From contig RYFE02000023.1 of the NCBI GenBank assembly GCA_004138175.2, forward strand, positions 1 to 64,000: a stretch of DNA of 64,000 nucleotides, in the 5' to 3' direction. The translations under genes were made by a program, and so were the position numbers. Each line of letters starts with the position of its first letter. The stretch's first letter is position 1. Below, one piece after another: positions 47,737 to 53,527 of the stretch. The notes below the pieces were generated by a model. That model worked only from the letters and a program-made list of their open reading frames with translations. It had not been told where the DNA came from and made no database searches. The DNA comes from Chloroflexales bacterium ZM16-3 (lineage in GTDB: Bacteria > Chloroflexota > Chloroflexia > Chloroflexales > Chloroflexaceae).

Positions 47737-48723
47737 TTAGGCGCGCCAGACCTCAACTCGGTTGCGCCCGTTGGCCTTGGCCTGATAGAGCGCGCTGTCG
47801 GCGTGGGACAGCAGCTGCTCAAACGTATCGCGCTGCCGGTCAAGCTCGGCCGCGCCGACGCTGATCGTCACTGGGAACGCCGTCGCCCCGGCGGCGAAGG
47901 GCGCGTGCTCGATAGAGAAGCGTAGGCGCTCGGACAGCACTACGGCGGCCTCTTCAGAGGTCATCGGCAGCACGCAGAGAAACTCCTCGCCGCCATAGCG
48001 CCCCAGGTAGTCGGTAGAGCGGGTGGATTGCCGCAGCAGGCGTGCGCAGCTGCGCAGCACCTTATCGCCCACCTGGTGGCCGTAGCGGTCGTTGACCTGC
48101 TTAAAGTGGTCGATATCGATCATCAGGATCGAGACCGCCGAGCTGTAGCGCTTCGCGCGATCAACCTCCTCGGTTAGCCTGAGCATAATGCTGCGCCGGT
48201 TGAGGAGCTGGGTGAGCTCATCGACGTGGGCGATCAGCTCGATCTTCGCGAGTGCATCCTCTAGCATATGCTGCTTCTGGGTCAGCTCGTAGCTGATCTT
48301 TTGCAGGCTGCGGGTGGTGGTCGAAAGCTCGCTGGTGACGCGCATATACTCCTCGGCCCCGTGCTGGTCGAGGGCGGCGATCGGCTCGGCGAGCAGCACC
48401 AGCTGCGAGTCGGCGGCTGCGGTCAGGTAGCAGCGGTAGGACTGGGGGATCGCGGTGGGGTTCTCGGTAAAGTTGAGGGTGGTCGGCCCGGCGCGCTGCT
48501 CGGCCAGGGCCTGCTGAATCTGCTTGTGGAAGCGTGGGCGGCTGCTGGGATCCAGGAGCGTGAGGATGCTCTGAGCGTCGGGCTGTAGCGCAAGAATCTG
48601 CTGTAGGCGCGGGTTTGTCTCGATCAGCCCCCCGCGAGGATCGATCAGGGCGATCAGGCTGCTGCTCTGCTCGATCAGCAGCCGCCCACCGATAGTGATC
48701 AGTCGCTCGCCAGGATCCTTCAT
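47737..48723 (-). CDS. Diguanylate cyclase with PAS-like N-terminus
   Basis: Makes the second messenger c-di-GMP. 328 residues: PAS-like region (about 15-115), a coiled-coil linker (about 125-165) and a GGDEF domain (about 166-326). The active-site loop is GGEEF at 244-248 and the inhibitory RxxD site (RSTD, 235-238) sits five residues before it, so both catalysis and product inhibition are likely. It starts within the stop codon of the B12-binding protein gene (ATGA), so the two are translated together. No EAL or HD-GYP domain. Cytosolic. Confidence 0.92.
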   Translation of the reverse strand: MKDPGERLITIGGRLLIEQSSSLIALIDPRGGLIETNPRLQQILALQPDAQSILTLLDPSSRPRFHKQIQQALAEQRAGPTTLNFTENPTAIPQSYRCYLTAAADSQLVLLAEPIAALDQHGAEEYMRVTSELSTTTRSLQKISYELTQKQHMLEDALAKIELIAHVDELTQLLNRRSIMLRLTEEVDRAKRYSSAVSILMIDIDHFKQVNDRYGHQVGDKVLRSCARLLRQSTRSTDYLGRYGGEEFLCVLPMTSEEAAVVLSERLRFSIEHAPFAAGATAFPVTISVGAAELDRQRDTFEQLLSHADSALYQAKANGRNRVEVWRA

Positions 48724-49841
48724 GCTAACGTCAGACAGCCTTCTTTATACGCAGCCTCAATGTAGTTGATCCCCGCGCGCGCATTATGGGCGAACCCATC
48801 GGCCCCCATCTGCCGCCAGCGGTCGGGGGTGAACTGATACGCCTGCCCGCCGACCAGGATCTGCGGGGTCGGGCTAAGCCCAGCTGAGCGCACTTGTGCG
48901 ATCAGCTCCGCCACAGCCGGTAGGCTGGTGGGCAGGGTCGTAGAGATGCACAGGAAGCGGGCCTGCGTCTGCGCGAGCAACGCGACAATGCTGTCGGCGG
49001 GGGTGTTTGCCCCGGTGTAGTAGGTATCCCAGCCGTTCATCTCCAGCAGGTCGGAGACGATCCGCGCCCCGATCTCGTGGAGCTCGCCCGGCGACGCGGC
49101 AACGACAACGCGGCCCTTCATACGCGGCAGCTCAAGGATCTGCGGGTAGAAGTGCGCCATGACCCGCTGGGAGATCGCCGTCGCCAGGTGCTCCTGCCCG
49201 ACGCTGATCTCGCCCTGCGCCCAGCGGTGGCCGACCTCGTACATCGCTGGCTGGATGATACACTCCCACCAGGTGGCGATCTGGTCGGGGGACTTGATAT
49301 ACTCGTCTGCCGCCAGCAGCGCCGCACGCATGTCGGGCGTGAGCAGGGCATTGAGGTAGCGCTGCAGGTAGGGATGCAGCTCGTCCGCGATGTCCGGCTG
49401 ATCCTGGGGGGTCTTGGCAAGCAGCATCAGCTGCCCGTGCAGATCCTCCATGCACTGGTAGACAGCGCCGATCTGGGCGGCGCTGCGCGGATCTAGGTAG
49501 TGCGCGACGCCATCGCGCCAGATCTCCAGGTCGACGGGGAAGATGCGCGAGGGGAGCCCGCGCAGGAAGTGTTTTCGATAGCCCCAGGCGAGCATCGTGA
49601 TCAGGGCGTCGGTGCCCCTCAGTTCCAGCTGTGCAGCCATAAAGTCAGCGTGCTCGATGTGCTGGCGGTAGAGCATATCCAGGGCGAACGGGCCGATCAG
49701 ATCGCCGATATCGGCGCGCTCAGCCATCTGTTGATCGGCGTAGGCGATCAGCAGCGGCGTATGAACCCGGTAGGACTCGCAGGCGTCATCATCGACGGCG
49801 GCAAGGGCTGTTGTGAGATGGTATGTGAAGAAACGATCCAT
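48720..49841 (-). CDS. B12-binding protein with CarH-type photoreceptor signature
   Basis: 373 residues. Residues 1-150 are helical and unassigned. About 155-240 form the four-helix B12 cap and about 243-365 a Rossmann B12-binding domain. The cap has W207-x9-E217-H218, the Wx9EH motif of AdoCbl-based CarH/LitR light receptors, and the B12 domain has ExHxxG (E253, H255, G258), His255 being the expected lower axial ligand. There is no MerR DNA-binding domain, and the residue after Trp207 is Ala, not the His that ligates cobalt in light-exposed Thermus CarH. Coupled to a GGDEF gene, so light or B12 control of c-di-GMP is the best guess. A B12-sensing, non-light role is also possible. Confidence 0.82.
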   Translation of the reverse strand: MDRFFTYHLTTALAAVDDDACESYRVHTPLLIAYADQQMAERADIGDLIGPFALDMLYRQHIEHADFMAAQLELRGTDALITMLAWGYRKHFLRGLPSRIFPVDLEIWRDGVAHYLDPRSAAQIGAVYQCMEDLHGQLMLLAKTPQDQPDIADELHPYLQRYLNALLTPDMRAALLAADEYIKSPDQIATWWECIIQPAMYEVGHRWAQGEISVGQEHLATAISQRVMAHFYPQILELPRMKGRVVVAASPGELHEIGARIVSDLLEMNGWDTYYTGANTPADSIVALLAQTQARFLCISTTLPTSLPAVAELIAQVRSAGLSPTPQILVGGQAYQFTPDRWRQMGADGFAHNARAGINYIEAAYKEGCLTLA

Positions 49842-49925: not shown

Positions 49926-50205
49926 TAGGGGGCAGGTACTATACTATACCCGACAGGCGTATGGGCAGGGCGGGTAGCTTAAAACCACCCCGTCGCGGGT
50001 GTGACGTATGTTTTCGGCGCATAGGCGAGACACCCAGCCGTAAACGGCCGGGCTGATCAACAAAGCCCCTGCGGGGCTGCTGCCAGAGCCCCGCAGGGGC
50101 TTTGTCTCGTGAGCCCGCCCGTTTACGGGCCGGGCGCGTGACGTTGCAAACCCCTGAGCCCAAAACCACACATCGCCCCCGCATTGCAACACACGGGCGA
50201 AGATA
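49926..50205. repeat. Intergenic region with MITE-like palindromes
   Basis: 50030-50150 holds nested palindromes: AAAGCCCCTGCGGGGCT / AGCCCCGCAGGGGCTTT, then GCCCGCCCGTTTACGGGCCGG matched by GCCGTAAACGGCCGGGC. These resemble the MITE interior but lack the GCAATACCGC ends. The rest, including ACTATACTATACC at 49937, shows no gene. Confidence 0.6.
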
Positions 50206-50214
50206 TGCTATCCT
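50184..50214 (+). promoter_or_regulatory. Possible promoter of the GT4 gene
   Basis: TTGCAA (50184-50189) and extended -10 TGCTATCCT (50206-50214), 19-base spacing. Confidence 0.4.
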
Positions 50215-50336
50215 ATGGCGCTGCCGCAGCGGCGGCCAGGGAGGGGATGCGGGAGTCTATGCACGATACGGTACAGCTTGTCGTAGCGAGCCATGGCGGC
50301 TCCGCCCCTGTCGCCTTGTCGCCACAGGCCAGAACC

Positions 50337-51428
50337 ATGCGCGTCGCCCTCGCCCACGACTATCTGAACCAGTACGGCGGCGCCGAGCGCGTGCTTGAGG
50401 CGCTGCATATGCTCTACCCGGACGCGCCGGTCTACACCTCTATCTATGACGCCGACGCTATGCCCGACCACTACCGGGGGTGGGACATCCGCACCTCGTT
50501 TATGCAGAGCCTGCCCGGCTGGCGCAAGCACTTCCGGCGCTACTTCTTGCTCTACCCGAGCGCGTTCGAGAGCTTCGACCTGGGCGAGTACGACCTGATC
50601 ATTAGCAGCAGCAGCGCCTACGCCAAAGGGGTCATCCCGCGCCCCGGCGCTATCCACATCTGCTACTGCCACACGCCCATGCGCTTCGCATGGCGCACCC
50701 GCGACTATGTCGCCCGCGAGCAGATCAGCGGCTTCCAGGGCGCGGTCCTGCCCTTCCTGCTCACCTACCTGCGGTTGTGGGACTCGGTGGCGAACGCGCG
50801 GGTGGATGCGTTTGTGGCCAACTCGCGCGAGGTGGCCGGCCGCATCCGCCGCTACTACGGGCGCGGGGCGACGGTCATCCCGCCGCCGGTGGATCTGCCG
50901 ACGACGATGCCGCAGCCTGCGGGCGATTTCTACCTGGCCGGAGGGCGGCTCATCCCCTACAAGCGGATCGAGCTGATCGTCGAGGCGTTCACCCACCTGC
51001 GCCTGCCCCTGAAGATCTTTGGCGACGGGCGCGACCGCGCCCGCCTGGAGCGTATGGCCGGGCCGAATATCGAGTTCCTCGGCTGGGTCGATGAGCCGAC
51101 CCGCCACGACCTCTTCGCCCGCTGCCGGGCCTTCATCTTTCCCGGCGAGGAGGATTTCGGCATCACCCCGCTGGAGGCTATGGCCGCCGGGCGGCCGGTG
51201 ATCGCCTATGGCGCGGGCGGCGCTCTGGAGACAGTGATCGATGGGGTGACCGGGCGCTTCTTCTATGAGCAGACCGCCGCCGCCCTCGCCGCCGCCGTGG
51301 CCGCATCTCACGTCGATGTCTATGACACCGTCGCCATCCGCCAGTACGCCGAGGGCTTCGGGCTCAACCTCTTCCTGGCCCGTATGCGTGCCCTCATCGA
51401 TGAGGCTGTGGCCACTAAACAATTGTAG
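50337..51428 (+). CDS. Family 4 glycosyltransferase
   Basis: Retaining GT-B glycosyltransferase, 363 residues from MRVALAHDYLNQYGGAERVL at 50337, the usual family start. The frame is open upstream and ATGs at 50247 and 50259, with better Shine-Dalgarno sequences, would add 26-30 residues partly from a TGTCGCC repeat, so the start is uncertain. The C-terminal donor site has EEDFGITPLEAMAAGRPVIA (E-x7-E). It heads an exopolysaccharide set with two Wzz-like proteins and a tyrosine kinase. Donor and acceptor unknown. Confidence 0.88.
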   Translation: MRVALAHDYLNQYGGAERVLEALHMLYPDAPVYTSIYDADAMPDHYRGWDIRTSFMQSLPGWRKHFRRYFLLYPSAFESFDLGEYDLIISSSSAYAKGVIPRPGAIHICYCHTPMRFAWRTRDYVAREQISGFQGAVLPFLLTYLRLWDSVANARVDAFVANSREVAGRIRRYYGRGATVIPPPVDLPTTMPQPAGDFYLAGGRLIPYKRIELIVEAFTHLRLPLKIFGDGRDRARLERMAGPNIEFLGWVDEPTRHDLFARCRAFIFPGEEDFGITPLEAMAAGRPVIAYGAGGALETVIDGVTGRFFYEQTAAALAAAVAASHVDVYDTVAIRQYAEGFGLNLFLARMRALIDEAVATKQL

Positions 51429-51486
51429 ATTTTAGATTTTAGGTTTTAGATTGCCTTTGCAATCTAAAACCTAAAATCTGCAATCA
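51425..51486. repeat. Inverted heptamer arrays (TTTTAGA / TCTAAAA)
   Basis: AT-rich heptamers ATTTTAG/GTTTTAG followed, after TTGCCTTTGCAA, by the inverse units. It forms a hairpin between the GT4 gene and the first Wzz-like gene. Confidence 0.88.
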
Positions 51487-51493
51487 GGAACCT

Positions 51494-52171
51494 ATGCAGC
51501 TACGCGCCTATCTCGCCATCCTGCGCCGCTTCTGGCCAATGATCGTCCTGCTGCCTCTGCTCGCCGGTGGCCTCAGCCTGGGACTGGGCATGCGCCAGCC
51601 CGTGCGCTACCAGGCCACCGTGCGCCTGATGGTGACGCGCAGCCTGATCGATACGAGCGGCGGGGCCAGCCTGCCCGACTTCAACGACAGCTACTCGTGG
51701 ACGACCACTGAGTTTATTCTCGACGACCTGGGGCTGGTGGTCGCTAGCGCGGCCTTTGCCCAGGATGTCTCCGCCGCCGTGGGGGGGCTGCCGCCCGCCG
51801 CCATCCAGGGCGGCCTGAGCGCCACCGTGCTGCACCGCTCGGTCTACCTCAGCGCCGTGGCCGATACGCCTGAGCAGGCGCTGGCGGTGCTGGGGGCGGC
51901 GACCGACGCCCTGCGCACAAAGGGCCTCGCCTACTGGGGGCGCGGCGAGGGCGGGCTCGACGTGGCCATCCTCGACCCGCCCCAGGCATCTGGCAGCGTC
52001 GGCGGCCTGCGCCCCGCCCTGATCAACGCCACACTGCGCGCCGCGCTCGGGCTCGCCGTCGCCATCGGCCTGGCCCTGCTGGTACACTATCTTGATGACC
52101 GGCTGCGCAGCCCGGCCCAGGCCGAGCTGTGGACCGGCGCCCGCGTGCTCGCCACTATCCCGAAAGAGTAG
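51494..52171 (+). CDS. Wzz-like polysaccharide chain-length protein 1
   Basis: 225 residues: N-terminal Wzz segment with a membrane helix (FWPMIVLLPLLAGGLSLGLG), extracytoplasmic region, second helix (ALGLAVAIGLALLVHYLDD) and a short cytosolic tail ending LATIPKE, the sequence at which kinase-bearing co-polymerases continue into the ATPase domain. Expected partner of the tyrosine kinase at 52865. Next gene starts 4 bases after its stop. Confidence 0.8.
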   Translation: MQLRAYLAILRRFWPMIVLLPLLAGGLSLGLGMRQPVRYQATVRLMVTRSLIDTSGGASLPDFNDSYSWTTTEFILDDLGLVVASAAFAQDVSAAVGGLPPAAIQGGLSATVLHRSVYLSAVADTPEQALAVLGAATDALRTKGLAYWGRGEGGLDVAILDPPQASGSVGGLRPALINATLRAALGLAVAIGLALLVHYLDDRLRSPAQAELWTGARVLATIPKE

Positions 52172-52175
52172 GCAT

Positions 52176-52829
52176 ATGCAGCTACGTGACTATATCTCTG
52201 TGATCATGAAGCGCTGGTGGGTGATCGCGCTGACCGCGCTGGCCGCCGCTGTGGCAGCCTATGGTGTGAGCAAGATGCTGCCGCACACCTTCCGCTCGCA
52301 GGCGGTCTACCTAGCCCTGGCCAACCAGGCCGACAACGGCCTAAACATCGTGCTGCGCAACTCGATGAACAGCTACCGCGAGCTGGTGATGCAGCCCAGC
52401 GTGCTCGACCAGATCAGCCAGGGGCTCGGCCTCGACATCAGCGGCGAGAAGTGGATGGCCGACGTGAACATCCAGCCCCTGCCCGACGAGCAGAAGATCG
52501 TGATCGAGGTGGACTCCCCCCAGCTCGATCAGGCCCAGGCCATGGCGAACGCCGTCGGCGACCGCATGATCGCCGAGGTGAACCGGATCAACGCCAGCCT
52601 GGAGGGCACCGCCCGGATCAACGTCACCCGCATCCAGGAGGCTCGCCTGCTCAGCATGAGCCCGAACACAAAGATTAATGTCCTGGCCGGCGGAATCCTT
52701 GGCCTGGTGATCGGCGTGCTGCTGGCCTACATCCTGGAGTATATCGACGATACGCTCAAGAGCAGCGAGGATGTCGAGCGCTTTGTGGGCCTCACCACCC
52801 TTGGCGCTATCCCCACCGCTGATAAGTAA
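52176..52829 (+). CDS. Wzz/YveK-type polysaccharide co-polymerase 2
   Basis: 217 residues; MQLRDYISVIMKRWWVIALT at the N-terminus, two flanking helices and a tail ending LGAIPTADK. It is a paralogue of the preceding protein, with the same first four residues MQLR. Likely controls length or export of the polysaccharide and activates the BY-kinase. Confidence 0.85.
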   Translation: MQLRDYISVIMKRWWVIALTALAAAVAAYGVSKMLPHTFRSQAVYLALANQADNGLNIVLRNSMNSYRELVMQPSVLDQISQGLGLDISGEKWMADVNIQPLPDEQKIVIEVDSPQLDQAQAMANAVGDRMIAEVNRINASLEGTARINVTRIQEARLLSMSPNTKINVLAGGILGLVIGVLLAYILEYIDDTLKSSEDVERFVGLTTLGAIPTADK

Positions 52830-52864
52830 TGCAAAAGTTCATGTTGCATTGACGAGGTTCTACC

Positions 52865-53527
52865 GTGTCCACACCTGCATCCCCCGAGCGCACGCTGATC
52901 ACCTTGCGCGACCCCGGCTCGGCCGCAGCCGAGGCATACCGCACGCTGCGCACGAATATTCAGTTCTCCAGCATCGACCGCCCGCTGAAGACGCTGCTGA
53001 TCACCAGCACCGCCCCCGACGAGGGTAAGAGCATCAGCCTGGCTAACCTCGCCGTGACCATGGCCCAGGCCGAGCAGCGCGTGTTGATGGTGGACTGCGA
53101 TCTGCGTCGGCCGAGCCTGCACAGCATCTTCGGCCTGAGCAACGAGCAGGGGCTCACCAGCGCAATCCTAGAGGGCGAGGGCGCGCTGCCCATCCAGGCC
53201 ACCGCTGTGCCCGGCCTGAGCCTGCTGGCCAGCGGCCCGCTGCCGCCGCGCCCGGCCGACCTGCTCGGCTCGCGGCGCATGGTCGCCCTGATCGAGCGCC
53301 TGCGCGCCAGCGCGGACATCGTGCTGTTCGACACGCCCCCGGTGGTCGCCGTCACCGACGCCGCCGTCCTCGCCCCCCAGGTCGACGGGGTGCTGCTGGT
53401 GCTCCAGGCCGGCCACACCCGCCGCGACCGCGCCCGCGAGGCCCGCCAGATCCTAGAGAAGGTCAAGGCGCATATCATCGGCGTGGTGCTGAACAACGCC
53501 CGCCTTGAGGGCGGCTATAGCTATTAA
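52865..53527 (+). CDS. Bacterial tyrosine kinase (CpsD/CapB type)
   Basis: 220-residue cytosolic BY-kinase. Walker A STAPDEGKSISLAN, Walker A' VLMVDCDLRRPS and Walker B VLFDTPPV are all present. The C-terminus (EGGYSY) has only two tyrosines, a short version of the usual autophosphorylated Tyr cluster. Works with the separate Wzz-like membrane proteins as in Gram-positive-type systems. Confidence 0.92.
   Translation: MSTPASPERTLITLRDPGSAAAEAYRTLRTNIQFSSIDRPLKTLLITSTAPDEGKSISLANLAVTMAQAEQRVLMVDCDLRRPSLHSIFGLSNEQGLTSAILEGEGALPIQATAVPGLSLLASGPLPPRPADLLGSRRMVALIERLRASADIVLFDTPPVVAVTDAAVLAPQVDGVLLVLQAGHTRRDRAREARQILEKVKAHIIGVVLNNARLEGGYSY

Follow-up and report, generated by a model that had tools for sequence, protein, structure and literature searches.

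The 64,000-nucleotide stretch of Chloroflexales bacterium ZM16-3 analyzed here (the window) contains two overlapping genes, one for a B12-binding protein and one for a diguanylate cyclase, which raises the question whether the two proteins together form a light switch. The sensor gene (48720..49841) encodes 373 aa with a predicted N-terminal globin and a C-terminal B12-binding domain. The cyclase gene (47737..48723) encodes 328 aa comprising a PAS-like domain, a coiled coil and a GGDEF domain. Both genes, and all their features described below, are located on the minus strand. An earlier note on this DNA had listed the two open reading frames, which are present at the coordinates given there, and an overlap of the sensor's stop with the cyclase's start, which comprises the 4 bases ATGA (48720..48723). 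Our reading, to which we assign a probability of about two in three, is that the two genes form a light switch in trans, in which a permuted photocobilin would control a separate cyclase and the globin would be auxiliary. The host is a phototroph, as reaction-centre L/M genes are present in the window's own genome. An adenosyltransferase gene is also found there, so that a supply of AdoCbl is plausible. Divergent to the sensor gene lies an exopolysaccharide-type cluster (50184-53527, plus strand) with a glycosyltransferase, Wzz and a ParA/tyrosine-kinase-like ATPase. Exopolysaccharide production is a typical c-di-GMP-controlled function. These neighbours were considered as a clue to the output of the pair and dropped, since they are not located beside it in Oscillochloris sp. 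ZM17-4 (L007).

The B12 part of the sensor consists of a helical cap (PF02607, residues 159-230, 49152..49367, Pfam E 7e-14) and a Rossmann B12-binding domain (PF02310, residues 243-351, 48789..49115, Pfam E 1e-19). It contains all four parts of the signature published for light-responsive B12 domains, GxxW, EH, GxxH and GxxxP (PMC11796333), as GHRW at 204-207, EH at 217-218, GELH at 252-255 and GANTP at 277-281. All four signature proteins tested responded to light, and a signature-less control did not (PMC11796333). Trp207-x9-Glu217-His218 (49188..49223) represents the putative adenosyl pocket, and His255 (49077..49079, within E-x-H-x-x-G) is the expected lower axial cobalt ligand; both assignments are based on the sequence and on the alignment of relatives. 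Trp207, Glu217, His218 and His255, pointed out at the right positions by the earlier note, do not vary in an alignment of 20 relatives from Chloroflexota, Bacteroidota and Paenibacillus and are therefore not a chance motif. Ranking solved structures by sequence (phmmer) placed the photocobilins SasPcob and AbDPcob first (E 2e-22), followed by CtMerR and CarH, and the predicted model of the B12 part reached Z 22.6-23.8 against photocobilins over 206-212 residues and about 16.5-17 against CarH. By both sequence and model, the B12 domain appears nearest to photocobilins, ahead of CarH. No Pfam match to a MerR DNA-binding domain was obtained in the sensor, and the NCBIfam CarH model scores it with 71 bits against a cut-off of 400. 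The label "CarH-like" used before thus fits the AdoCbl-type pocket and signature but not the closest kin, which are SasPcob and AbDPcob. We give hardly any credence to a role of the protein as corrinoid carrier of methyl groups, or to a degenerate B12 domain of the AppA-SCHIC type. MttC-type corrinoid proteins and AppA are matched as well, but far more weakly than the photocobilins; the sensor retains His255 and an intact W/EH pocket, and no gene adjoining it was seen to encode a methyltransferase.

Trp207 is followed by Ala where Thermus CarH has the light-state His ligand, which had been raised as a caution against light sensing. The observation is correct and extends to 12/12 window-type proteins. 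As a warning it does not hold: SasPcob has Gln at this position, AbDPcob Tyr and CtMerR Arg, and all three are light-responsive (PMC11796333) and respond without a bis-His state (PMC11796333, PMC10979010), so that Ala here is no counter-argument. Further B12 proteins were seen in genome G000. One is a DICT-GAF-B12 protein of 703 aa with the full signature and His after Trp (contig C35, L108 711-8768), encoded about 5 kb from a 426-residue protein with the genome's only PF01126 match. Another is a stand-alone B12 domain of 214 aa with the W9EH signature (contig C43, L109 2042-3762). It follows a same-strand ORF of 308 aa which is PAS-like by eye, and the two may make up a further two-gene B12 sensor of this genome.

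The N-terminal domain (residues 1-150, 49392..49841), called unassigned in the earlier note, can be assigned to a globin of the photoglobin/phycobiliprotein family by a chain of profile-profile comparisons together with the predicted fold. Pfam gave no match on residues 1-150, and no globin family, neither Protoglobin nor Globin, was matched in the ten members scanned. The window-type globin's own profile found no globin among PDB sequences, and its direct hhalign comparison with the two solved photocobilin globins was not significant (2.6%), which is why the assignment was made through intermediates and with the help of the predicted fold. The intermediates are distant sensors of the same layout, a globin-type domain followed by a B12 domain, from Bacteroidota, Paenibacillus and other Chloroflexota. 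The window-type globin aligns with these homologues at 92% (E 6e-7) with a score of 44, against a mean of 11 (sd 1.9) and a best value of 18 in 100 column shuffles; controls with the reversed sequence, the B12 cap and cross-domain pairs all stayed below 2% probability. The N-terminal profile of the distant sensors in turn matches allophycocyanin (E 8e-8), SasPcob (E 5e-6), smURFP and AbDPcob. For the structural comparison the domain was searched alone because Foldseek and VIA searches with the full-length protein mainly returned the B12 domain. Predicted alone, it has a middling AlphaFold pLDDT of 71. Among the best 50 VIA-align matches all are globins, biliproteins or a biliprotein-like design, with 6m9a at Z 14.5 and 2.7 A over 144 residues. 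The Foldseek E-values are weak (best 0.028), so that the fold assignment relies on the consistency of this list and on the profile chain. Proteins combining globin and B12 domains are known as photoglobins and belong to the same clade as the biliverdin-specific BBAG-2 globins (PMC10151467), and the authors of the photocobilin study had already noted that the B12 domain is N-terminal in some groups and C-terminal in others (PMC10979010). In its predicted layout the sensor is a permuted photocobilin, with the globin first and the cyclase on a second gene.

The pocket of this globin differs from that of bilin-binding relatives. In a nearly gap-free core alignment, the position of the bilin-holding Asp (SasPcob Asp270, the Asp of phycobiliprotein CXRD) is occupied by Gln, Asn, Leu or Thr in 10/10 window-type sensors, Gln60 here, and most distant sensors retain the Asp. 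His61 and His64, close to Gln60 (49650..49664), are invariant in all ten window-type sensors. Trp86 (49584..49586) is the counterpart of SasPcob Trp296, which packs on ring D of the bilin (PMC10979010), and is retained in 9/10. In AbDPcob, an accepted photocobilin, the Asp is replaced by His and biliverdin is bound poorly (PMC10979010); the missing Asp therefore weakens the case for biliverdin rather than membership in the family. The B12-first photocobilins of Chloroflexaceae have Gly at this site. Judged from these residues, window-type globins probably do not have as their ligand a bilin bound as in SasPcob. Besides, a globin of the window type without B12 domain was found in G353 (L052 1231-1953), upstream of an ORF which is PAS-STAS-like by eye. 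It has kept His61 and lost His64.

The distribution of heme oxygenase, searched as the PF01126 family only, was also analyzed. The gene is present in the window's genome and in six others with a window-type sensor. It was not detected in three further genomes with such a sensor, G260 (100% complete), G403 and G408, in nine Chloroflexaceae genomes with B12-first photocobilins, or in 17/17 genomes with distant sensors (those of L008-L012, L022 and L057-L072), for one of which completeness is given and in which most sensors keep the bilin Asp. As a control of the search, PF01126 was found in 20/247 Bacteroidota. In total, 29/36 genomes with such sensors show no PF01126 match and therefore have no known home-made source of biliverdin. 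This gap questions biliverdin as the general ligand of photoglobin-B12 proteins.

As another reading, the globin could be the main sensor, for heme and O2 as in globin-coupled-sensor cyclases or for another tetrapyrrole, with the B12 domain structural or modulatory. The heme globin-coupled sensors BpeGReg and DosC, which control GGDEF domains, are indeed its nearest folds in VIA-align (Z 13-14.5, ahead of smURFP and allophycocyanins at 10-11), and the invariant His61 and His64 would suit such a role. We nevertheless consider it quite improbable, as its sequence kinship is with phycobiliproteins and photocobilins, as Pfam matched no globin family in any member, and as the end of the Trp86 helix shows no conserved His in window-type globins, the two invariant ones being located on another helix. 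In addition, G401 and G402 have lost the globin: their sensors of 280-281 residues (L101 2027-2869 and L102 2010-2849) represent natural deletions retaining the B12 domain and the cyclase. Both nest inside the window-type clade (100/97), so that the loss is derived. A two-input sensor is also conceivable, in which the His pair replaces the bilin Asp, the globin binds heme or another tetrapyrrole, and B12 light sensing and this second signal are passed through a dedicated trans-acting receiver to exchangeable outputs, c-di-GMP synthesis or phosphorylation. We regard this as a tentative possibility about which we are rather doubtful. With the bilin Asp lost, two relatives without globin and most genomes without heme oxygenase, B12 is probably the main input.

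The cyclase appears active. Its GGDEF domain (PF00990, residues 165-322, 47758..48231, E 1e-49; TIGR00254 score 185 bits) contains the order RSTD-YLGRY-GGEEF, in which the I-site RSTD (235-238) has the correct spacing from the active site GGEEF (244-248; both within 47980..48021). This agrees with the active-looking enzyme with I-site described earlier. The same arrangement is found in 10/11 cyclase partners, and the 11th is cut off by the end of its locus. The region in front of it, a PAS-like domain and coiled coil (about residues 14-162, 48238..48684), is recognised weakly by domain models and is proposed to be a dedicated receiver for the sensor. A profile of this partner front end (A5) gave one match each in 12/41 family genomes and no others, and all 12 adjoin a sensor and run in the same direction. 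Behind the receiver lies a GGDEF domain in 11 genomes and a histidine kinase with receiver domains (HisKA/HATPase/REC) in G408. The receiver is modular: its front end is constant and the output is exchanged.

Behind each of the ten window-type sensors in the 41 family genomes lies a partner gene of one and the same type, in the sensor's orientation. Only the closest relatives and the distant Chloroflexota locus L022, which has the two-gene layout with a GGDEF output, share the 4-base overlap; elsewhere the two genes lie side by side on one strand, at most about 150 bases apart. A PAS-like/coil front end is encoded directly downstream of eleven Bacteroidota sensors (L062-L072), of L008, L009 and L011 (Bacteroidota) and of L010 (Paenibacillus). 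Recurrence beside GGDEF or EAL genes, suggested by the earlier note as a check, was found for GGDEF in 11/12 family genomes and L022, but not throughout, since the front end is joined to a histidine kinase in G408 and, where scanned, in Bacteroidota and Paenibacillus. Window-type and distant front ends show moderate similarity (74-76%, E 2e-5), with a score of 41 against a mean of 13 (sd 2.3) for column shuffles, about 12 sd above. The partner is absent beside the distant sensors L012, L018, L074 and L077, and those of L019, L023 and L024 have coil-only neighbours. Globin-less short B12 proteins in Bacteroidota mostly occur without such a downstream partner. The sensor/partner pair is ancient. 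At L023 (2569-3471) we observed that the distant Chloroflexota sensor gene directly follows a PAS-GGDEF gene, with 0 intervening bases, and is itself followed by the gene for a short coiled-coil protein.

Such pairing could also mean that sensor and cyclase are co-transcribed and share a physiology without contact, the PAS domain of the cyclase sensing a signal of its own. PAS domains usually bind ligands of their own, and the weak PAS matches in the cyclase front end would be compatible with this. It is very unlikely in our view, as the receiver has a single copy in each genome that carries it, always beside the sensor, and persists where a kinase has become the output, and as the two-gene logic recurs in three phyla.

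For the light switch in trans, the following sequence of events is proposed by homology. In the dark, the sensor would hold AdoCbl in the base-off form: His255 would lie beneath the cobalt, the adenosyl group would stack on Trp207, and the Glu217-His218 helix would be at a dimer interface. On illumination with green light, the Co-C bond would be cleaved, yielding aquo/hydroxo-cobalamin; no bis-His state is proposed because Ala follows Trp207. The Glu-His helix and the oligomer would then shift, as in SasPcob, and the cyclase would receive the signal through physical contact with its PAS-like/coiled-coil front end, so that its GGDEF domains would be spaced or dimerise differently and its c-di-GMP output would change. 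In vitro, control of a separate cyclase in trans was shown for a photocobilin (PMC10979010). By analogy with AbDPcob, in which light raises cyclase turnover more than 10-fold (PMC10979010), light is more likely to activate the cyclase than to inhibit it. The core of the earlier proposal of a light-to-c-di-GMP switch, an AdoCbl-type B12 photoreceptor module which is paired with a cyclase and is no transcription factor, is well supported by homology, the complete signature and the conserved pairing. It would not be the first of its kind, and the precedent of AbDPcob reduces the novelty of coupling B12, light and a cyclase (PMC10979010).

Instead of light, the sensor might report the supply of AdoCbl or the AdoCbl/OH-Cbl ratio, with the apo and cobalamin-bound states setting cyclase activity and light being incidental. 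AdoCbl binding alone lowers the cyclase activity of AbDPcob compared with the apo form (PMC10979010). Phototrophy is not known for most of the Bacteroidota, or for the Paenibacillus, in which the equivalent module occurs. CarH-type photoreceptors are, on the other hand, also used by non-phototrophs. The retained Trp, Glu-His and Pro residues form the adenosyl/photochemical pocket, every signature protein tested was photoactive (PMC11796333) and the host is a phototroph, all of which makes a supply sensor unlikely.

If light control in trans is correct, the pair would provide a route from green light to c-di-GMP in anoxygenic phototrophs. The output control known for photocobilins is that of one fused protein and of an artificial mixture in trans, whereas natural two-gene pairs are found here. 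The family offers a receiver domain with no other use in the family genomes covered by the search, swaps between cyclase and kinase output and natural globin deletions. With these variants, the way in which B12 photochemistry passes between proteins, and the role of the globin, become directly testable.

Photoglobins and photocobilins are already known, as is the control of a cyclase by B12 and light. Apparently new in the literature examined are the two-gene form, the dedicated output-swapping receiver, the His-pair pocket, the natural loss of the globin and the missing heme oxygenase; the neighbourhood pattern may partly be described in the 2022 photoglobin paper. The photoglobins likewise have a globin fused to a B12 domain, include members with a C-terminal B12 domain and have signalling neighbours, but the window-type pocket departs from the bilin-binding consensus, and no characterised member of this arrangement was found in the literature examined. 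AbDPcob, a photocobilin-diguanylate cyclase from Acidimicrobiaceae (sensor part PDB 8J2Y), shares the W/EH/H B12 domain, the photoglobin-type globin, the GGDEF output, a residue other than His after Trp and the replaced bilin Asp. It differs as a single polypeptide with the globin after the B12 domain, whereas here the globin comes first and the cyclase is separate, with its own PAS-like/coil front end. SasPcob (PDB 8J2W/8J2X) is, like the protein described here, a stand-alone B12 and globin sensor; its B12 domain is the closest sequence match and its Trp296 corresponds to Trp86. Its domain order is reversed, Gln60 stands here in place of its biliverdin-holding Asp270, and the invariant His61 and His64 are new here. 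CarH and CtMerR have the AdoCbl pocket and signature in common with the sensor. They differ by a MerR DNA-binding domain, transcription as output and, in CarH, His after Trp, none of which is found here, where the predicted output is c-di-GMP. The globin-coupled-sensor diguanylate cyclases DosC and BpeGReg also have a globin fold feeding a GGDEF domain, but as heme-binding single chains, in contrast to the phycobiliprotein-type sequence, the intervening B12 domain and the cyclase in trans of the pair described here.
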